Both the position numbers and the translations under genes were made by a program. DNA of 64,000 bases from a bacterium (GTDB taxonomy: Bacteria; UBA10199; 2-02-FULL-44-16; JAAZCA01), in NCBI GenBank assembly GCA_021810905.1, contig JAJZQH010000008.1, positions 1 to 64,000 on the forward strand, given 5' to 3'. Positions 17,382 through 52,915 of this stretch are shown piece after piece. The notes under the pieces are model-generated. The model was not told where the DNA came from. It was given only the letters and a program-made list of their open reading frames with translations, and made no database searches. Positions within the stretch are counted from its first letter, which is position 1. Each line of letters begins with the position of its first letter.

Positions 17382-19067
17382 TCATCTCCCTTTTTTCGCT
17401 CTGTCGATGAACGTTTCTCTTTCTCTCGCCCGATCCGCATCCCTGTACGACCTGCCATCTGCTCCGGCAGAACTCATAGTTTCCGCGGCTCGAACTGTCC
17501 TCTGCGTCTCCATCATCCCATTTGAGCTCGGCGTCCCGAGGAGCCGCGCCGCCATGGCGACGGTGTCGCTATTGATGTTGCCACCGTTCCAATATTGTCT
17601 GGCGACCTCCGGGTTCTCAATTACCGCATCAGCGAATGCACGAGCTATGGGCTCGCATTTGTCAGGGGCTATCTTGCCCGCGTAGTTATTCTTCAGATAA
17701 TTCTTCATTGACCTGTATATGTTGTCTCTGGTTTCTAGCAATTCGGAAGCAAACCAGTCATAGTGCGCTGCCTTCAGCGTTTCGGCGCTGGACCTTGTGA
17801 ATCCATTCGCATTGAGCGCCTCCATGGCCTTCGTTACGTCCTCGAAGATGAGTTCGATGGTTTCTGTTTTGGCAATGCGCCGTTCGGCCGCAAGCTCTAC
17901 AGATTTCTTCAGCACCGCCTCCACGGAGCTGGCAAGCGCTGAATCAGGCCGCCTGTAATAAGTCTCGGCGAATAATCCGACCAGCTTGAGTACGGAACCT
18001 GATATGCGCACGTTGTTCTTCGACTCATAGTTGCCTACGGCCCCACTGCTCATCTGCTTCAGAATCGATATGAGTTCGTCGCTGACGCGGTTCTCGAATG
18101 CGACAGGAGTATGATCATCGCCATCGCGCGCGATGATCACGGGAACGCCTGAGCTGAAACGTCCGGCCGGTTGTGAAAATGTATCGACGATGGGGCTGCG
18201 CCGGCTGGCAGGCGTGGGGCTACGTTCCGATGCACGACCTTCCGGGACCGTGGGAGGCGGAGGAGGCAGGGTCGGATGATTGCCTATAGCCCTGAGCTCC
18301 GCCTCTATCGCATCGCGCTCGCGCGCGAGTTTCGGATCCTCCACGAACGGAGCTGCCGGCCTCACGGAATCCGGCATGCTGAGTACGGGCGTGGCGATCC
18401 GCTTTTCCGCGGCCTTCATCTGCCCGCGCTTCGACGAGCCCGGCGCGCTGTCGGGTCTTTTCAGATTATCCTGATTCAAATCCGAACCGGAACCGAAGAG
18501 CCCCTTCACACGCCTGAATGTCCACCCGATGAACTTCAAGATACCATAACCCGAGAGGGCTGCGGCCGCCGTGGCCATGGTAATCGCGAGGATAGTTCCC
18601 GGCATGCCCAGTTTGTCCAGCATTTGCTGAACACCGCTCTGAGCCTCTTCCTTGAGCCTGTCTGCCTGTTTGTCTATGTCGGGCGGCAATACGCTCCCAG
18701 TAGGGGCAGGATTAGTCTCAGCGGCGGATTTTGCAGGCTCAGCGGGTCGGCGGAGCTTGAAGAGTTTCCAGCCTCTCGTTGCGGCGGGATTGTTTGCAGG
18801 GCCATCGCGGCAGACGCCATCCCAGCCGAGAAATGCCGTCCAGTTGATCCTCTGTACGAGCCCGATGTCATAAGGGCCCGCAGCCCTTACGCCTTTCTGG
18901 CCGGCAACCATTTCCACGAGCCTGTTGCGCTTCACGCCGGCGGGCGCAAACGAATCCACGTCCGTTACGGAGTCGCACGAGCTGAAGCACTGCGGAGCGC
19001 ATTGCTTGCTATCGTAATTGAAGGTACCGCATCGATTTCTACCTTTGTCATCTACCGGGCACACCAT
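17382..19067 (-). CDS. Cys-leader membrane-anchored protein, 561 residues
   Basis: No known family recognised. Start 19067 is fixed by GGAGG six bases upstream and a sigma-28-like box 26 bases before it. Residues 1-31 contain CPVDDKGRNRC and further cysteines; residues 81-104 (GWDGVC ... LFK) match the second half of the leader module in three other proteins here. A Pro/Ala linker, one membrane segment (about 157-181), and a Pro/Ser-rich stretch follow. The C-terminal half is helical and includes MKNYLKNNYAGKI...FADAVIENP, a module shared with the AAA+ protein at 50352-52862. There is no classical signal peptide, so topology is open. Probably part of one envelope complex with its paralogues (inference). 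Confidence 0.78.
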   Translation of the reverse strand: MVCPVDDKGRNRCGTFNYDSKQCAPQCFSSCDSVTDVDSFAPAGVKRNRLVEMVAGQKGVRAAGPYDIGLVQRINWTAFLGWDGVCRDGPANNPAATRGWKLFKLRRPAEPAKSAAETNPAPTGSVLPPDIDKQADRLKEEAQSGVQQMLDKLGMPGTILAITMATAAAALSGYGILKFIGWTFRRVKGLFGSGSDLNQDNLKRPDSAPGSSKRGQMKAAEKRIATPVLSMPDSVRPAAPFVEDPKLARERDAIEAELRAIGNHPTLPPPPPTVPEGRASERSPTPASRRSPIVDTFSQPAGRFSSGVPVIIARDGDDHTPVAFENRVSDELISILKQMSSGAVGNYESKNNVRISGSVLKLVGLFAETYYRRPDSALASSVEAVLKKSVELAAERRIAKTETIELIFEDVTKAMEALNANGFTRSSAETLKAAHYDWFASELLETRDNIYRSMKNYLKNNYAGKIAPDKCEPIARAFADAVIENPEVARQYWNGGNINSDTVAMAARLLGTPSSNGMMETQRTVRAAETMSSAGADGRSYRDADRARERETFIDRAKKGR

Positions 19068-19092
19068 ATATACCTCCTGCGCTGCGACTTCT

Positions 19093-19119
19093 TTATCGGC
19101 TGAAATCAAAAAAAGTTGC
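19093..19119 (-). promoter_or_regulatory. Sigma-28 (FliA)-type promoter
   Basis: Minus strand GCAACTTT, 11-base spacer, GCCGATAA. The E. coli FliA consensus is TAAAGTTT-N11-GCCGATAA, so the -10 is exact and the spacing identical. It lies 26 bases upstream of the 561-residue protein gene; the same box precedes the genes starting at 22225, 50061, 52862 and 59207. Confidence 0.8.
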
Positions 19120-43927: not shown

Positions 43928-44479
43928 TCATCCACTGACTTTCGTTTCTTCAAATGCCTTCTTCAGCGCCTCTATGTTTCGCTCTGCCAGCTTCGGGTTG
44001 AAGCGGTGTTTGATCTGCGGGATCAGCGAATCAAGCGGCACAAGATTGCTCGCCTTAAGCAGCGCGCCTATCATCGTCGTGTTGGTGATCGGGACCTTGA
44101 GCGTCTCGAGCGCGATTTTGAGCGCATCGACCGTAGCGAGCCTGCCCTTGTATTTCATCGTGCCGCGCACGTCGCTTTCGTTCTGATGCGTGTTGATCAC
44201 GACGAGTCCGCCGGGCTTGAGCCCTGCCGTCACGTCCATGATGTTGAGCAATCCGTCGTCGAGCACCACGACGATGTCCGGGTGCGTGACTTCCGCGCGC
44301 ACCCTTATCTCTTCCTCGGAAACGCGCAGATACGCCTGCACAGGCGCGCCGCGGCGCTCGGGGCCGAATGACGGCATTGATTGCGCATACCGGCCCTGCT
44401 CTATCGCCGCAAGGGCAATGAGCTCCGCGGATGTAACCGCGCCCTGGCCGCCGCGCCCATGGAATCTGATCTCGATCAT
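43928..44479 (-). CDS. porG: Pyruvate:ferredoxin oxidoreductase gamma subunit
   Basis: A 183-residue subunit with [24 protein letters not shown] and [22 protein letters not shown], both diagnostic. First gene of the operon. ATG 44479 has weak GGAAG upstream; longer in-frame versions lack conservation. Confidence 0.93.
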
Positions 44480-44673
44480 GGCAGTGTCTTCCGAAGTGTT
44501 GAAATGCTTGGATTTTTTCGCCCGGTTTCGTTCGAGGCGCGCGGACCTTCGCGCTTTCAGGTCCATATGTCAAGGGCGAGTTTCCAGATTCTTCGACGTC
44601 GTTCAGCGAGCGCTGTGCCACGAAATACGCGCTTGCTCCCGGCTAGCCTCGTGTTACGAATCTGCATCGCGCC

Positions 44674-44815
44674 AAGAGTACGCTGTCCTTCCCTCATGCC
44701 GGCGGGACGAATCGACACCGAGTCATGCAAACTCATGCGCGCATATCAGCGGATATATTGCTTATGCGTTCCCGATCGCCCGGCGGCCGTGAGGAGGAAC
44801 AGCTCGCTCTGTGCC
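44674..44815. repeat. Palindromic element, AGAGTACGC family, copy 2
   Basis: Left arm AGAGTACGC...CCGGCGGGACGAATCGACACC (44674-44720) and right arm GCGTTCCCGATCGCCCGGC...GCTCTGTGC (44766-44815) pair imperfectly. It matches the 11493 copy and the 60503 half-copy. It lies in the divergent gap between porG and the HEPN gene, 430 bases long, where I see no other gene. Confidence 0.75.
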
Positions 44816-44908
44816 CTTAACAACTGCGAAATGGCACGGAGCTCGCCGAAAAAGCGGAAGCAAATGTCACTTGTTGCCGCACAAAAAATCTGTTACTCGG
44901 TTAGATTG

Positions 44909-45298
44909 ATGGAGAGCAAAGTCAAGACATGGTTTGATCTGGCAACCGGCGACCTCGAGTTTGCCGGTGAGATACTGGCCGCAAAGAAACGCCCTCATTA
45001 TTCCGCGCATTTCTGCCAGCAGGCCATTGAAAAGCTGTTAAAGGCAATCGTACAGAAACGGACCGGTAAAGCGCCCCTTCCTGTGCACAATCTCAAGACC
45101 CTCTGCAATCAGGCAAAGCTGGAATTGCCAGACGAAAAAATGCAGTGGCTGCTGAATCTCGCACCACATTATCTTGGCGCAAGATATCCTGAAGACCTTT
45201 TCGAGCTGCAGAAACAATATACACAGGCATTCAGCGAGCGCTTGTACAAAGAAACTCAGGAGATATTCGAATGGTTGCGCAAAAGTTACCTCAAATAA
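44909..45298 (+). CDS. HEPN domain protein, second pair
   Basis: A 129-residue HEPN protein (MESKVKTWFDLATGDLEFAGE..., HFCQQAIEKLLKAIVQKR, VHNLKTL, ARYPEDL). The arginine-to-histidine spacing is longer than the classical Rx4-6H, so RNase activity is uncertain. No convincing Shine-Dalgarno; an in-frame ATG at 44866 is an alternative start. It overlaps the MNT gene by 28 bases, as in the first pair. Confidence 0.82.
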   Translation: MESKVKTWFDLATGDLEFAGEILAAKKRPHYSAHFCQQAIEKLLKAIVQKRTGKAPLPVHNLKTLCNQAKLELPDEKMQWLLNLAPHYLGARYPEDLFELQKQYTQAFSERLYKETQEIFEWLRKSYLK

Positions 45299-45615
45299 AA
45301 AAGGCAATTACTCAATACGTGAATGCCCTGGAAAAAATGGGCATTCATGTTGAACGCGTCATTCTATATGGCTCTTATGCCAAGGGACATGCCCATTCCG
45401 CCAGCGATATAGATATTATCGTTATTTCGCGAGACCTCGCTGGATGGCCCCCCATCGAGCGACTCCAGATGCTCTCCAGGGCCACTGCAACCATAGAAGC
45501 GCCGCTCGAAGTACTGGGTTACACCCCGCAGGAAATAAAACGTCGCGGGGAGAAGAGTATCTTCTGGGAAGAGATAACCAAAAGCGGCATGGAAGTATAC
45601 AACAGGGCGGCATAG
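45271..45615 (+). CDS. MNT-type nucleotidyltransferase, second pair
   Basis: A 114-residue protein with VILYGSYAKGHAHSASDIDIIV, the GS...DxD site. Probable partner of the HEPN protein upstream. A strong terminator follows 18 bases after the stop. Confidence 0.85.
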   Translation: MVAQKLPQIKKAITQYVNALEKMGIHVERVILYGSYAKGHAHSASDIDIIVISRDLAGWPPIERLQMLSRATATIEAPLEVLGYTPQEIKRRGEKSIFWEEITKSGMEVYNRAA

Positions 45616-45684: not shown

Positions 45685-47298
45685 TTATGATTGGGTGTGG
45701 GCGTTCGGGTTCACTACATTCATGTCGACAACGACCAGACCGGCGGCTGTCTGGACAAGATTTACTGCAAAGAGTCCGACGGCCATTGCACCCAGCGTGC
45801 CTGCGGCCATGGCAAATCCGGGAACGCTCGTGGGGTTCTGGAACTCCTGATAGCTCGATCGTGCAGTAGCCTTCATCTCGGCTATCTTTAACTCCACCAT
45901 GGCGCTTCCCAGCATCCACATCGCGCTGAGCGTGGACACCTGCTGAGTTGCTTCCTGTGCGGTCTTGGCTGCCTGCTCTGCGGTCTTTTCGGCCGCGGCT
46001 TCCTCGGCTACCTTCTCAGCGGGTTTCTCGAGCTCGATCTTCGTCTCCGGTTCGCCCTCCGGCAGTCTGATTTCACGCGAACCGCCGTTGTTCACAAATG
46101 GAGGCGGCTCCTGTGGCGGAGGAGTCGGAGAAGTTGGTGGAGGAGGCGGTCCCTTTATTTTGCTGAGGAGAAAGCCAGCTCCCGTAATAAGAGCTGTTAC
46201 TGCGGCCTCCGGAACACCTCTTTTGATAGCTGCCTGCACGACCGCCTTCACCACGAAGGCAAAGCCTGTACCAGCAGCTCCGCCAAGGAGACCCATCCCG
46301 GTGAACCATCCTGCGATACGCGCGGCCTCAAGATTTTTTTCCGCCTCGGTCGGTGGCTTCGGCGGCGCGGGATATCTTGAGATCTTCTCCTTAATCGCGT
46401 CGCACCTCTGCTTGCGATTCTCAACCAGGAAGGAACAATCGCCCAGGGCCTTGACCACATCCTCATTTCGCGCGCCGTCGTTATAGGGATATCCATAGAT
46501 CCCCCTGACCGGCGTATTCGTGCAGAGATGAACCGCTGTTCTGGGGAATTCTGGCGCGCCGTATTTGCGAAACTCATTCGCCTCATTTTTCGTCATCGGG
46601 ACCGTCAACAGAACGGTCTTCTCATAGGGAGGCAAAAAAACGTCGGAACAAGGAACCGCTATCTCGTTTTCATATTCTGAATTCAGATCGATCGTTCCCG
46701 TGTCCGGATTTATCTCTCCGACGACGAAGTCGTTTGGAGCTACGATATATCGCTCTTTGCCCGTATCGCCCTTTGCAGAGAGCGGCAGTTGGAGAACCCC
46801 TGACAAGAGACGGACTTTTTCCGCGGCAGGCACGGTCTTGTCCGCGTTGATGACGCTGAGAATAAGACCCGGCCTTTTTTCCAGCGGCAATTTTATCTGA
46901 TCAAATATCCTCTTCAGAAAATCGACCTTCGCTTCAGGAGAAGCCGCCTGATCCGCATTCACAATGGCAAGAGAGGCAGCGGCCTTGATTTCCGGAGAGA
47001 CATTGATGCGTTCAAACGCCTTCAACAGGAACTCCAATTTGTCTCTCAGGCTGGCGGATTCGCTGTTGTTGAGGATCTTTACAATGTCATCCGTCTTTTT
47101 TTCCGCCGTATTGAGAATAGACTCTTCCGACGACACGATCTCGTCGATTCGAGCGCGATCAATGCGGACATTTGCACGCATCAAGCCCGGGAAATGCAGA
47201 TCTGCATCCGGCGCTTCCGCGTCTTGGGGTTGACCGAAAAAAGAGGGAATCGAGTTCGATGCCGAACCTGCGGGTATTGGATCTCCTCCAGAAAACAT
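45685..47298 (-). CDS. Large membrane protein of the lineage-specific cluster, 537 residues
   Basis: No family recognised. It has about 300 mainly helical residues, then a hydrophobic stretch (about 325-385, Gly/Ala-rich, two possible membrane segments), a Pro-rich linker, a Glu/Ala-rich charged stretch resembling a coiled coil (EKVAEEAAAEKTAEQAAKTA), and a C-terminal membrane segment. It lacks the Cys leader. It starts 45 bases after the stop of the 905-residue gene, with GGAGG upstream, so it is probably in an operon under the promoter at 50135. Confidence 0.72.
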   Translation of the reverse strand: MFSGGDPIPAGSASNSIPSFFGQPQDAEAPDADLHFPGLMRANVRIDRARIDEIVSSEESILNTAEKKTDDIVKILNNSESASLRDKLEFLLKAFERINVSPEIKAAASLAIVNADQAASPEAKVDFLKRIFDQIKLPLEKRPGLILSVINADKTVPAAEKVRLLSGVLQLPLSAKGDTGKERYIVAPNDFVVGEINPDTGTIDLNSEYENEIAVPCSDVFLPPYEKTVLLTVPMTKNEANEFRKYGAPEFPRTAVHLCTNTPVRGIYGYPYNDGARNEDVVKALGDCSFLVENRKQRCDAIKEKISRYPAPPKPPTEAEKNLEAARIAGWFTGMGLLGGAAGTGFAFVVKAVVQAAIKRGVPEAAVTALITGAGFLLSKIKGPPPPPTSPTPPPQEPPPFVNNGGSREIRLPEGEPETKIELEKPAEKVAEEAAAEKTAEQAAKTAQEATQQVSTLSAMWMLGSAMVELKIAEMKATARSSYQEFQNPTSVPGFAMAAGTLGAMAVGLFAVNLVQTAAGLVVVDMNVVNPNAHTQS

Positions 47299-47343: not shown

Positions 47344-50061
47344 TTATTTTACCCTTCCTTTATTACGTGCTTCCCAAAATCTGCTCCACCAGCCGCGTCC
47401 CACATTGCCCTCACCCGTCGTATCGATGGCCCTCTCCACATCTACAGGCCTCATGGGCAGCTGCATGTGGGGTCCGCCAAGGCGCTGGCATTCTACCGTG
47501 AGATAGAGAAGCGGAGAGACTCCGCTCGCCTTCATGCCGTCGATCAAAACGCGTGAAGGCTGCGACTCTCCGAAATTTCTTTCGACGTATTCCCTCCACG
47601 CATTGCGCTGCCTCTCCGAAATCCTGTCGCTCTTGAATACAGGGTCATTCTCAAGGAGCTGCAGGATCCGAGCAGCCGGAGGCGTGATATCGGGCGAAAG
47701 CAGAGAAGAGCCCGACGGCATGGACAGCAGTGCGGCCTCCAGCCTCACCTCTCCGCTGAACGACTCGCGGGCGCTCAACACGCCGGCCTGCCTCAGCAGA
47801 TCCGTGACGGTATCGCCGTTGACATAGACCTCCTGCGGTCCGGCAGTCACAACGCTGCTTTGAGTCAGGAGCTTCCGCGCGATGAGGCGCGAACATTCGA
47901 GCTGGCCCGCAAACTTCATATCCTTGAATGGCGCCTTGTCCGCGACCTGGCTGAAGACCCGCGCAACTGCCTTTCCCGCGAGCACCCTCTCGTTCACGCC
48001 GAGGTTGTCCCACCACACCCCGCCTTTCATCGCTAACGGGCGATTTGAAGAACCCGCGCCCCAGACGTCCTGCGCGTATCGGTCCCTGAGCTCGGCATCC
48101 TGCTGAACGGAATTGCTCCTGCCAAGTCTCGCTACCCAATTCACGATCCGTGAAAGCAAGGTCAACCCCTCCTGCGGAGGTTCCACTGCTATTGTGGGCC
48201 TGGTGCCGTCCGGATCAGCATCAGCAGGACGGTTCCATACCTGCGTCGGTCTGCCTGAGACCGGATCATAGACAAGGGTCTTTGTCGCATCCGAATCAGG
48301 TGCGCCCGGATTGTACACCGGCGTCTTTGCCGCATCCCCTCTGAGAGGAGGCGGGTTGATGGACGGCAGTATGCGACCTGTGCCAATATGTGTTGAGGTC
48401 GCATGCGGCGGCACGGCATCGAACGATGGGCTGACACGGCCTACGCCTATGGATATCAACCATAGCTCCGAATTGATGAGGCCGCTGCTTGTATCGGTCG
48501 GATCCAGATACTTCGACGTTAGCGCATTTCGCTCTCCGTCATTCATCACAACCGTATAAACGATGGCCGCCTTTGCCCAGAGCTGGGCCTCGAATGGATC
48601 TGCAACGCCCATCCCTTCGATCTTCGCTTTCAAATTCGCATAAGCGTCGCAGCGCCTCTGCATCTCCTGCTGGTCAGGCAAGCTGTTGCCGCTTCGGTCG
48701 CGCTTGATGGTCAGACTGTCCGCGAAGTTTTTTTCCGGACCCACGACGATATTATTGCCGGTATGGTTCAGCTTCAGATTGAAAGAACGTGACAGGTCCA
48801 GGGAATTGCCGCTATTCACCCAGCTCGCGATCCTCGCCTTATCCTGCCACGGCCTGTTTTTATACCAGGAGGCCCTTTCCAATATCGACGCGACCCTCTG
48901 GATTTCGGTCAACGCCTTGACGGTCTCGAAATGAACATCGGAGTCCTGAGCGCCTGCCACGGGCCTTTGCCGCGTTGCGGTCATATCGGGGAGCGGGTTG
49001 AACGGAGGGCTCGTCTTACCGACGCCCAGCTGGCTGAGCCATGTTTCAGAAAGCATAAGCGGTTTTCTAGGCTCACCAAACGTCGCACTCAGAGCAGTTG
49101 CTTCGGCGTCGGTCATTGACCCGAGCGAAGTCAGTGCAACCTGTGACCAGACATCGACGTCTACGGGATCTACAACTCCCATTCTCTTTATCGTCTCAAC
49201 AAGTTCCTCGTGCCCATCGCAATAGCTCTTCATCTCATTCGGCCCGGGAAGGGCGCTGTTCCTGGGATCGAGAACTACAGCGACGGGTTGACCGTTATTG
49301 ATCCTCTTCACATGAGCAGTGCGCATTCCGGTGGCGGCGTCGAGTGGACCGTATGTCACCTGCAGTTGAAAGCGGCTCAGATCGGTCTCGCCGCTCAAGA
49401 TAGCCGCGGCGATCTCCGCCTTTTCCCTCACCGGCTTCGTGCTGTACCAATCCGCCTTGTTCAGCTCCTTAGCGATCATGGCGATGCGCACGATCGACTT
49501 GACCGTCTCGTAATTTTTCGGAAGCGCGGGATTTGTTGCGCCTATCACCGGGGGCGGAGGTGTCGGAGTTGGAAGACGAGCAGGAGTCGTAGCAATAGGC
49601 GGCGGTGTCGCCGCAATCTTTCCTGCATTTGGATCCACGACAGGAGGCTTCTGGGCCGCGTGCCGCCTGGCGCTGCGACTCCCGAGCACCGCCGCAACAG
49701 AGGCGCCAAAGAGCCAGAGAGCGGCTGCTCCTATGCCAATGCCGATCAGCGCGTCGTTGTTATTTTTATCTGAAGGTTTATCCTCATCGTCATTCTTTGG
49801 GTTCGCTGTTCCGGTCGGAGAAGGTTGTGGCGCCGCCGAAGCGACCCTCTTGTACTGGCCCCATTTCGGGTTCGCCGGGTTCGTCGTCATGCAGCAGATC
49901 TGGAAGCCTGATTTGACCGAACCCGCGACATCGGCGATCTCTTCAAGGCTCCTGGGCTGTTTTGAAAGCTGTTCGACAGTCGTCGACGAATCCGCAGCCG
50001 GGCACTTGGGAAGATACGTGGTGTCGCATTTACAACCTGTTGGTCCGCACTTTGGCGCCAT
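47344..50061 (-). CDS. Cys-leader membrane-anchored protein with internal duplication, 905 residues
   Basis: The leader has C5, C10, C12 and C20 (MAPKCGPTGCKC...LPKC), then GFQICCM at 52-58 and WGQYK at 67-71, aligning closely with the 1021-residue protein. A Pro/Asp linker precedes one membrane segment (about 104-126). Two consecutive homologous regions of about 185 residues follow, each starting ETVK..., A.WY..(K/R)P...KA.IA and containing (N/D)...LPDQQEM / LPGPNEM and WL..(L/I)GVG(K/R). The C-terminal 280 residues are unrecognised. No signal peptide. GAGAGG precedes the ATG. Confidence 0.78.
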   Translation of the reverse strand: MAPKCGPTGCKCDTTYLPKCPAADSSTTVEQLSKQPRSLEEIADVAGSVKSGFQICCMTTNPANPKWGQYKRVASAAPQPSPTGTANPKNDDEDKPSDKNNNDALIGIGIGAAALWLFGASVAAVLGSRSARRHAAQKPPVVDPNAGKIAATPPPIATTPARLPTPTPPPPVIGATNPALPKNYETVKSIVRIAMIAKELNKADWYSTKPVREKAEIAAAILSGETDLSRFQLQVTYGPLDAATGMRTAHVKRINNGQPVAVVLDPRNSALPGPNEMKSYCDGHEELVETIKRMGVVDPVDVDVWSQVALTSLGSMTDAEATALSATFGEPRKPLMLSETWLSQLGVGKTSPPFNPLPDMTATRQRPVAGAQDSDVHFETVKALTEIQRVASILERASWYKNRPWQDKARIASWVNSGNSLDLSRSFNLKLNHTGNNIVVGPEKNFADSLTIKRDRSGNSLPDQQEMQRRCDAYANLKAKIEGMGVADPFEAQLWAKAAIVYTVVMNDGERNALTSKYLDPTDTSSGLINSELWLISIGVGRVSPSFDAVPPHATSTHIGTGRILPSINPPPLRGDAAKTPVYNPGAPDSDATKTLVYDPVSGRPTQVWNRPADADPDGTRPTIAVEPPQEGLTLLSRIVNWVARLGRSNSVQQDAELRDRYAQDVWGAGSSNRPLAMKGGVWWDNLGVNERVLAGKAVARVFSQVADKAPFKDMKFAGQLECSRLIARKLLTQSSVVTAGPQEVYVNGDTVTDLLRQAGVLSARESFSGEVRLEAALLSMPSGSSLLSPDITPPAARILQLLENDPVFKSDRISERQRNAWREYVERNFGESQPSRVLIDGMKASGVSPLLYLTVECQRLGGPHMQLPMRPVDVERAIDTTGEGNVGRGWWSRFWEARNKGRVK

Positions 50062-50351: not shown

Positions 50352-52862
50352 CTATCTCCTAACCACATCAATAATTTCTCTCCTCGATCTTCTCATCTCC
50401 TCATTCTCAATGCGTTCGAAGCCCCTGGCAGTATCTTCTGCCCTAATGGTCGTCATCGGGCGTATCACGGCGTTTCCACCCGAAGGACGGCTGAACTGCC
50501 ATGTTATATCCGCGCTGTTCCGGTTGAATATACCGTCGCGGAAATACGTGCCCGCAAATCCAGGCACATTGACGACCGCATCGGCAAATACCCCGGCCAT
50601 AACCTCCATGCTTTTTTCGCCAATATTATTTCTATAATTTTCCTTCAAATACTGCATTGCCTTTGAATATGCATCCGTCCTTGTCGGCGCCATACCAGAG
50701 CCATCGCTGTCCACTGCGCTTACCCCGTTATTCGAACTGTACGTATACGATGAAGATCTGGCGCTCTTAATGAGCTCCTGCTCAATCAAACGCGCAAGTG
50801 TTGGAGAGACGTAATCCACCGCTGAACGCGCGACTGGAACGACGGTATCGACGACTACATCAGTCACGTTCGTATCTGTGTTTCCCGGGTGGTTCAAAAT
50901 TAAGGTATTTTCCCCACCGACAAGCATCATTGTGATGGGATCTGTCGGGATCTCCGCCGCACGCGCGTCGCCGGAATTGAGGGCAAGTCCACCGCCGACG
51001 ATAAGCGGACCGGCAATTGAAGTGATTCTCCCGCCAGGGCCCCTCCACGGAGGAGGCATTGGCGGCGGAAGCACTCCCGTGCCACCGGACGGGGCAAGTG
51101 ACGGTTCCACAAACTTCGCTGTGGGGTCAACCTGCCTTCCTGTCATCTTCGAGACCGTGCTCGCCACGTCTTGTACATTGATCTCCAACGGTTGACTCGC
51201 ATCCGTACGGCGCGCCACGGAAGCCTGTTCAATAGTGAGCACAATCAACTGGTCGATTGCATCGTAGCGAGCATGACTCTCCGGCGGCATGTTCAAGAGC
51301 GCGAGATTGACCGCGGCCTCGCCTGCCTCAGGCGTTATTGTTACATTATAATCTGCCTCATAAAATGGTACTGTCGAATTCTTGATGATTGAACGAAGTA
51401 CATCCACGTGAAGATCGTGCACTACCTGAGGCGGGAGACGGCGTGCTAAATCCACCAGCCATGGAATAGTTTTTACGAGAGCCTGGAAGCTCTTTGGAGT
51501 TGTAGAGCCGGCAAAGCGTGAATTGCGGGTCAGCGCATCCTTGAGGGCGGAACCAAGGGATTCCGAGTTTCCGCCGCTGGATGTGCCGGAAGTGAGGAAG
51601 TCGGAGAGTTCCGGGAAATAGACCGCTTTGCCTTCTTTCATGGCACGAACCAGTTCAGCGTTGCGCGCCGCCGCATCGCCGCGAATGTTGATATTCGCGC
51701 CGAATTTATTCGGGTCCACGATTAAGATCGTCTTGATCGTGCCATCGTAAAACTTGCGCGGAACGCGTTTGTCTTTCAGTGCTATAAGCTGGGCAGCGCG
51801 CTCGACGATCTTGTCCTTTCCGACGCCGGATTCTCCGAGTAAAAGCGGGTTTGCATAACGAGGCCGTGCGAGACGGCGTAAAAACTCAAGAGCCTCTTCA
51901 TCGCGACCCAATATCTCATACTTCTGACGATTCAACGCCAGCTTTGACCTCTGATCTGCGACGAGATCGCTTGTGTAGTTCTCCAGTTTGTTTTTGTCCG
52001 AATCGCCGTCCATCATTTTACGACTGAGCTTGTATTGTTTATAGAAAAGAACAGAAAGAACAGCGGATGATAAAACACTCACTGTGAACCCCATTACCTG
52101 AAAAATCCGGCCCCAGAGATCTCTGTCATTCTGTCCATCTTGGGGCGTCTTTGCCAGCAAATCCTTGAGATATGCTGCCAATTTTTTGCGCGTCTCCTTT
52201 AAGTTTTTATTCATCTCCTCCGAGGAGCTGGAAATCGGCATCTGCGATTCATCTTCGATCAGGGGAATGTTGGTTGTCAGCCAGTTGTAATTATTGGGAA
52301 AAAGATATGTGCCAGGCGTGTAACTGCCATCTGGCTGCTTCTGAGGGGCATATCCGTTCTTGATGACGACGTCGTCCTCGTTCCAGCCGAAGGCCTGCGC
52401 GAGCGCCATCATCTCTGCTGGATTCATTTTAAATCCCTTGGGATCTCTTATTGTTCCAGCAGGCCCGGTCTTGTAGTAGGCCAGAAAACTGGCCATACCC
52501 GAGGCCTTGTACGCAAACCATCTAAATGGTGAAAAAACCGAACGACAGATACCCGCATATCCGTATTGTGTTAATGGAATCTTCTTGTCCGGACCGGCGA
52601 CGAGAAGCCGCTTAATCTCGTTTTCATCAAAATCAGTCGTCTTCGGGTTGTCCGGGAGAGGCGATCTCGCTCCTTCCGGAGGCTTATCAGTTTCATTTTC
52701 AGTCAAAAACCTGTACTCAGTCGCACCGGTCAGTTTGTTGGGGACCATTACAATCGCGCGTTTCTCCACCCACACATCTCCTGGTGCGACCGGATCGCAT
52801 ATAGGGTATTGGTCTTCGGGGCAAACCTTCCCGTCTACGCCGCACACCTGTCCGCCTACCAT
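50352..52862 (-). CDS. Cys-leader membrane-anchored Clp-type AAA+ protein with altered Walker motifs
   Basis: 836 residues from ATG 52862 (GGAGGAGGG upstream). Leader: C7, C14, C22 (CGVDGKVCPEDQYPIC) and GYAGIC...WFAYK at 101-119. Residues about 147-190 (MMALAQAFGWNEDDVVIKNG...PGTYLFP) loosely resemble LysM. One membrane segment at 255-276. ILGRDEEALEFLRRL...NPLLLGESGVGKDKIV aligns with the first nucleotide domain of ClpA/ClpB, but the Walker A Ser/Thr is Asp-350 and the Walker B block reads VYFPEL instead of hhhhDE. Sensor (GSTT) and an RR near the arginine finger remain. The C-terminal module MQYLKENYRNNI...FADAVVNVP is shared with the 561-residue protein. A remodelling or scaffold role at the membrane is inferred. 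Confidence 0.8.
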   Translation of the reverse strand: MVGGQVCGVDGKVCPEDQYPICDPVAPGDVWVEKRAIVMVPNKLTGATEYRFLTENETDKPPEGARSPLPDNPKTTDFDENEIKRLLVAGPDKKIPLTQYGYAGICRSVFSPFRWFAYKASGMASFLAYYKTGPAGTIRDPKGFKMNPAEMMALAQAFGWNEDDVVIKNGYAPQKQPDGSYTPGTYLFPNNYNWLTTNIPLIEDESQMPISSSSEEMNKNLKETRKKLAAYLKDLLAKTPQDGQNDRDLWGRIFQVMGFTVSVLSSAVLSVLFYKQYKLSRKMMDGDSDKNKLENYTSDLVADQRSKLALNRQKYEILGRDEEALEFLRRLARPRYANPLLLGESGVGKDKIVERAAQLIALKDKRVPRKFYDGTIKTILIVDPNKFGANINIRGDAAARNAELVRAMKEGKAVYFPELSDFLTSGTSSGGNSESLGSALKDALTRNSRFAGSTTPKSFQALVKTIPWLVDLARRLPPQVVHDLHVDVLRSIIKNSTVPFYEADYNVTITPEAGEAAVNLALLNMPPESHARYDAIDQLIVLTIEQASVARRTDASQPLEINVQDVASTVSKMTGRQVDPTAKFVEPSLAPSGGTGVLPPPMPPPWRGPGGRITSIAGPLIVGGGLALNSGDARAAEIPTDPITMMLVGGENTLILNHPGNTDTNVTDVVVDTVVPVARSAVDYVSPTLARLIEQELIKSARSSSYTYSSNNGVSAVDSDGSGMAPTRTDAYSKAMQYLKENYRNNIGEKSMEVMAGVFADAVVNVPGFAGTYFRDGIFNRNSADITWQFSRPSGGNAVIRPMTTIRAEDTARGFERIENEEMRRSRREIIDVVRR

Positions 52863-52915
52863 ATAGCCCTCCTCCAGAGGCATTTCCCGCGGGGCGGGAG
52901 AGTGCCTCATGTTTG

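Follow-up and report, generated by a model that had tools for sequence, protein, structure and literature searches.

Clp motors are textbook Mg-ATP machines, and a gene within the window, the 64,000-nucleotide stretch of bacterial DNA analysed here, raises the question of what a Clp-type AAA+ domain is kept for when both of its magnesium ligands have been replaced. The encoded protein consists of an N-terminal domain, a transmembrane (TM) helix, one AAA+ domain of the Clp NBD1 type, a Pro-rich stretch, a helical module and a basic tail, in that order. Its features are as follows.

50352..52910, minus strand: whole gene of the tethered single-NBD Clp-type protein (P0001), 852 aa, one open frame from the ATG at 52910
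52131..52862, minus strand: N-terminal domain, residues 17-260, with Cys23, 30, 38 and 122; predicted to lie outside the cytoplasm; homologous to the N-termini of tethered proteins from family f5
52041..52097, minus strand: TM helix, residues 272-290, by hydropathy; sequence re-read from the DNA
51120..51998, minus strand: AAA+ domain of the ClpA/B/C NBD1 type, comprising large part and lid (305-597), by sequence and structure matches
51813..51836, minus strand: altered Walker A GESGVGKD, Asp366 replacing Thr; re-read from the DNA
51675..51695, minus strand: equivalent of pore loop 1, NINIRGD, Tyr lost; re-read from the DNA
51609..51626, minus strand: altered Walker B AVYFPE, Pro433 replacing Asp and Glu434 kept; re-read from the DNA
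51438..51443, minus strand: arginine finger pair R490-R491; all 19 tethered proteins compared have Arg at the R491 position
50355..51119, minus strand: C-terminal part with Pro-rich stretch, hydrophobic stretch, helical module (about 703-807) and basic tail, also present in the paralogue at 17382-19109

Translation probably starts at the ATG at 52862 (Met17; 836 aa), the start used in the original prediction, rather than at 52910, because a strong Shine-Dalgarno-like GGAGGAGG was found ahead of it when the DNA was re-read. The assignment of the central domain to the first nucleotide-binding domain of ClpA/ClpB is borne out at several levels. Residues 307-589 match ClpA NBD1 (1ksf) with an E of 2.8e-15 in a phmmer search against PDB sequences, and the NCBIfam ClpA model matches residues 300-592 (E 5.5e-17); the scores place the protein outside the ClpA and ClpB families themselves (61.2 bits against a cut-off of 993 and 48.2 bits against 1232, respectively), and Pfam AAA_5 reaches 21.5 bits, just below its cut-off of 22. 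There is one NBD stretch only and no D2 match. In the AF2 model, where pLDDT is mostly above 80 across the AAA domain, an NBD1 fold with its lid is confidently predicted over residues 305-597, which superposes on D1 of ClpC, ClpA and ClpB; the best matches are 7uiy_D (ClpA) in Foldseek (E 2.8e-14) and 9gi1_b (ClpC) in VIA-align (Z 26.1, 2.4 A over 266 residues), and these fold matches are not independent of homology, because the AF2 input alignment included ClpA/B NBD1 segments together with the family.

The motif changes noted earlier, an Asp in Walker A and a Walker B reading VYFPEL with Pro, were confirmed on the DNA, as was the persistence of the sensor and the arginine finger. In particular, GESGVGKD departs from the Walker A consensus GxxGxGK[ST] and AVYFPE from the Walker B consensus hhhhDE, and the Tyr of the canonical pore loop KYRG has become Ile; the Walker A Lys, the Walker B Glu, sensor 1 (GSTT, residues 468-471) and the finger are all retained.

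The membrane tether, likewise proposed from the start, is found at residues 272-290, and the AAA domain begins directly behind it, at about residue 305. The net charge is -1 before the helix and +1 after it, so that the more positive side faces the AAA domain. TM helices exceeded the threshold in seven of nine proteins checked, with the C-terminal flank more positive in 7/7, which suggests a topology with the N-terminus outside and the AAA domain inside. The N-terminal domain had been described as LysM-like, a reading that found no support: it gives no Pfam LysM match at E up to 1, and its model has low confidence (pLDDT 61.5) and resembles nothing in the PDB at E up to 0.001. A profile of this domain matches proteins in 9 of 290 genomes, all of them from the window's phylum (families f1, f2 and f5), with no match in the remaining genomes searched, about 244 of which lie outside the phylum. 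Alignment of the f1 and f5 N-terminal domains gave an hhalign E of 9e-5 and a score of 39.9, whereas 20 column shuffles scored no higher than 15.7; homology between the f1 and f2 N-termini is marginal (E 0.0013). The Pro-rich stretch after the AAA domain is modelled with low confidence.

The altered motifs are shared by relatives within the window's order, where nine genomes were searched. Four further genomes (G002, G006, G003 and G001) contain full copies, all of them open frames. The G002 copy reads GPSGVGKD / VYFPEI and is located near gyrA, as in the window; the G006 copy reads GETGVGKK / PYIPEL and starts near a contig end, so that most of its N-terminal domain is missing as read. The copies in G003 (DELPREGKD / VYISEI) and G001 (DAGTGEGKD / VYISEI) have broken P-loop glycines. 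The pore-loop Tyr is lost in the window genome (G000) and in G002; it is present in three relatives. Among the rows examined, no tethered copy was found in G005, G007 or G008. The genome G001 also has a truncated and rearranged second copy of 458 aa (G001:C19; L058 286-1662), with NIGEGKD / VYISEI and no finger; it is a chimera whose N-terminus resembles one of the neighbour genes at the main locus and is followed by a lidless altered AAA core and by the main copy's C-terminal tail. Genome G004, from the sister family f2, has a different set of three tethered AAA proteins: P0007 is canonical (GMAGVGKT / VIDEL), P0008 is a second copy with Walker motifs (GAERSGKS / FFDEG), and P0009 is degenerate (GEHGVGKA / FIDHL). 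P0007 is the only fully canonical tethered AAA found in the order, and a TAG lies inside its lid (L043 7369-7371), with the frame open to the contig end; the TAG may reflect an assembly error, a pseudogene or recoding.

The altered form is fixed in all five genomes of families f1 and f3 where the protein was found, which led to rejection of a local decay of the motifs. Moreover, between G000 and G002 the identity is 60% in the AAA domain, 45% in the TM-linker, 29% in the N-terminal domain and 20% in the C-terminal part, so that within this protein the altered domain is under the tightest constraint; in the same pair of genomes ClpB NBD1 is 85% and gyrA 82.5% identical, which means that the domain has diverged faster than ClpB, yet is the best-kept part of its own protein.

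Profile searches across 46 genomes of the phylum revealed further large single-Clp-NBD1 proteins, mostly behind a TM helix (L070, L071, L072, L073, L105-L110, L112, L113 and L115), and 19 tethered proteins were compared. The comparison leaves out L060 and L061 (TM below threshold), L074 (a fragment), the truncated G001:C19 copy, L110 and L113 (tethered and canonical, with long insertions), L111 and L114 (partial AAA matches) and the remaining profile rows (E about 1e-5 to 4e-9, including one in G002:C83). TM hydropathy is above threshold in 15 of the 19; in P0004, P0006, L072 and L115 the corresponding position has only a stretch below the threshold. All 19 have the Walker A Lys, and all 19 the finger Arg. 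The residue after the Lys is Ser/Thr in nine, Asp in six, and Lys, Ala, Gly or Glu in one each; the Walker B Asp is found in ten and the Walker B Glu in 17. Among the controls, 45 distinct NBD1s taken from ClpA/ClpB frames with two NBDs, K-T is present in 45/45, DE in 44 (one was missed by the pattern) and the Arg-Phe/Leu finger pattern in 45.

Both Mg ligands are absent from eight of the 19 proteins (P0001, P0003, P0004, P0005, P0006, L109, L112 and L115), which come from eight genomes in families f1, f3, f5 and f11; the loss is thus shared by orthologues across family-level distances, in answer to the alignment that the original prediction had proposed. L109 and L112 (family f5) read GKD / QE, and L115 (G016, family f11) reads GKG / TE. 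All eight keep the Walker A Lys, the Walker B Glu and the finger Arg. Six have Asp after the Lys, even where other P-loop residues are broken (G003 and G001); the exceptions are Lys in G006 and Gly in G016. Two P-loops outside this set end in GKE, those of L106 (G014; GPPGWGKE) and L111 (G036; GPDGVGKE), and since L106 keeps the Walker B DE, loss of the Walker A Thr alone occurs as well.

Canonical orthologues had been named as the finding that would turn these changes into local decay. Other families of the phylum do have tethered relatives with canonical motifs, which indicates that the Mg-ligand loss is derived, having happened once or several times, and decay gains no support from them, given the fixation in f1 and f3. 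In a tree from all columns the eight Mg-ligand-free proteins form one clade with support of 99/98; without the columns of the two Walker motifs and the finger, the same eight have only 38/51 and form no supported clade, so that a single origin is neither shown nor rejected. An earlier tree had carried long-branch warnings.

With about even confidence, we read the protein as a hydrolysis-dead, membrane-tethered Clp NBD1-type AAA+ oligomer that serves as a scaffold. A structural ring or scaffold is preferred to a motor because the relatives in the phylum share the change and the residues of the subunit contact are kept; together with the altered domain being the best-conserved part, this is the pattern to be expected where subunit contact is needed and hydrolysis is not. 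The subunit would be unable to perform ordinary Mg-dependent ATP hydrolysis. Its AAA domains would probably come together below the inner membrane in a ring, complete or partial, that stays static, and the retained finger Arg, Walker B Glu and Walker A Lys would lie where the subunits meet. Such a ring would fix the Cys-containing N-terminal domains, and probably a neighbouring partner membrane protein too, across the membrane. The scaffold or pseudo-ATPase role suggested by the original prediction fits the shared loss of Mg ligands and the retained Lys, Glu and Arg; as a function it remains a reading of the sequence. Several observations run against it. The pore-loop Tyr kept in three relatives is needless for a purely static ring, and residual catalysis could also explain why the Walker B Glu and the finger were kept. 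Further points against it are the variation after the Walker A Lys in G006 and G016, the missing finger of the second G001 copy and the weak clade support of the eight proteins once the motif columns are removed.

The surroundings of the gene contain a candidate for that partner, as well as a reduced paralogue.

45685..47298, minus strand: 537-aa protein, a diverged version of the partner membrane protein, hhalign E 3.3e-6
47344..50061, minus strand: 905-aa protein with a Cys-rich N-terminus and no family match, between the AAA gene and the partner; linked by position only
17382..19109, minus strand: paralogue P0002, 575 aa, with a TM and the C-terminal module of the window's AAA protein; of the AAA domain it retains the lid and lacks the P-loop part, by sequence comparison

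The AAA gene usually has a short membrane protein for a neighbour: one of 287-356 aa with a YxGxxxGxC motif adjoins it in G001, G002, G003, G006 and G004 (5 of 46 genomes). The 537-aa protein of the window matches this family with an hmmsearch E of 6.2e-8 among six candidates, and the gene after L115 (G016) is another divergent copy (hhalign E 5.5e-5), both values coming from very small searches. The paralogue at 17382-19109 is a further step in the loss of the nucleotide site.

Other genes nearby were noted in passing. The 905-aa protein seems by eye to be internally duplicated, with similar halves around KADWY.../RASWY..., and two adjoining frames at 44381-45615 (plus strand), judged by eye, resemble a HEPN-domain protein and a nucleotidyltransferase of the MNT type, which might form a toxin-antitoxin pair. 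In G004, a 574-aa protein with a zincin-like HECYH motif lies just before the partner and AAA genes (L043 133-1857; Pfam MPTase-PolyVal at only E 0.027). In family f5, a short Pro/Tyr/Gly-rich protein starting with MSFL precedes the AAA gene (L109 4655-5386 and L112 4770-5582), at the place held by the partner in the window's order. The cluster members obtained no Pfam, NCBIfam or PADLOC name beyond AAA/Clp and weak matches, and PHROGs returned a Clp-like 'ATP-dependent protease' family and one weak family of unknown function. A role in anti-phage defence was considered and set aside: P0001, P0003, P0004 and P0006 match no PADLOC family at E up to 0.1, and P0007 gives weak P-loop matches only.

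The main alternative, which we consider unlikely, is that the dead tethered subunit joins an active AAA+ ring, gives its finger in trans and recruits the ATPase to the membrane. The available text of two reports describes such activators, LAP1 and LULL1, whose nucleotide-free AAA+ domains lie just behind a TM helix and lend an arginine finger to Torsin (PMC4358337, PMC4999309); the window protein resembles them in that its TM leads straight into a nucleotide-site-deficient AAA+ domain whose finger is conserved. The mixed set of G004, with its canonical, Walker-bearing and degenerate proteins (GKA / DH in P0009), would also suit an activator. In contrast to LAP1 and LULL1, no finger-less ATPase partner was found for the window protein. 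The intact tethered Clp-like partner sought in the window genome was not found; the sole Clp-like ATPase found there is a soluble two-ring ClpB with its own RR finger pair, and a third AAA match (G000:C18) is one that we take by eye to be RarA-type. Across the phylum, no canonical tethered copy was seen in seven of the eight genomes with the Mg-ligand-free form, among the profile rows examined, so that the dead form seems to stand alone; in the exception, G016, a second tethered protein (L107) keeps K-T and has no recognisable Walker B. These two results, the missing canonical copies and the finger of ClpB, place the scaffold above an activator. ClpA is above its cut-off in 13 of 46 phylum genomes and in none of the nine genomes of the order; ClpP is present in 9/9 of the order. 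A further difference is that LAP1, in the text available (PMC4358337), has no recognisable Walker A and a blocked pocket, whereas the Walker A loop of the window protein is intact except for the Asp.

A more doubtful variant of the scaffold is a nucleotide-free ring in which a cluster of the Asp, the Walker A Lys and the Walker B Glu binds the neighbour's finger in place of the gamma-phosphate, an idea that stems from the retention of the Asp in 6/8 proteins even with P-loop glycines gone. If true, the former motor would have become a permanent trans-envelope frame, held in an ATP-like state. Less probable again is a decay at the level of the lineage, with an ATPase drifting to loss in a protein kept for its N- and C-terminal parts; the paralogue that retains only an AAA lid and the truncated G001 copy are consistent with it, but the AAA domain is the best-conserved part, its Lys, Glu and finger are kept in 8/8 and every full copy is an open frame. 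The least probable alternative is an active ATPase with altered metal ligation, where Asp366 replaces the lost Walker B Asp as metal ligand, as the Asp in f1 and f5 proteins and the Glu and finger kept in 8/8 would allow, but which is disfavoured by the Lys or Gly at its position in G006 and G016, the broken P-loop glycines of G001 and G003 and the pore-loop Tyr lost in G000 and G002.

Returning to the preferred scaffold, the phylum offers active tethered NBD1s in some families and Mg-ligand-free ones with their contact residues in others, a natural series on the value of an AAA+ ring without hydrolysis, and the locus points to an uncharacterised multi-gene membrane system of the phylum, unnamed by the Pfam, NCBIfam and PADLOC models searched. 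Among open-access titles and abstract openings, nothing was found on a tethered, degenerate or pseudo Clp/AAA+ family like this one; within that scope the protein appears to be a new Clp NBD1-type pseudo-AAA+ with a membrane tether. Compared to ClpA, ClpB and ClpC (Hsp100 D1), it has the same fold, domain order, sensor 1, finger pair and lid, but only one NBD, a membrane tether, and neither the Mg ligands nor the pore-loop Tyr. FtsH and i-AAA belong to an AAA family other than the Clp NBD1 type. As is proposed for the window protein, FtsH, i-AAA and the FtsHi pseudo-proteases are membrane-anchored with a single AAA ring and, in the text available, include inactive members (PMC8197885); the window protein differs in having no protease domain. 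A parallel for an inactive ring that helps assembly is the D1 ring of Pex1/Pex6, described in the available part of its source as ATPase-dead with the Walker A Lys kept; there, D1 belongs to the same chain as an active D2 and has no finger motif (PMC9265785), whereas the window protein keeps its finger and has no second ring.
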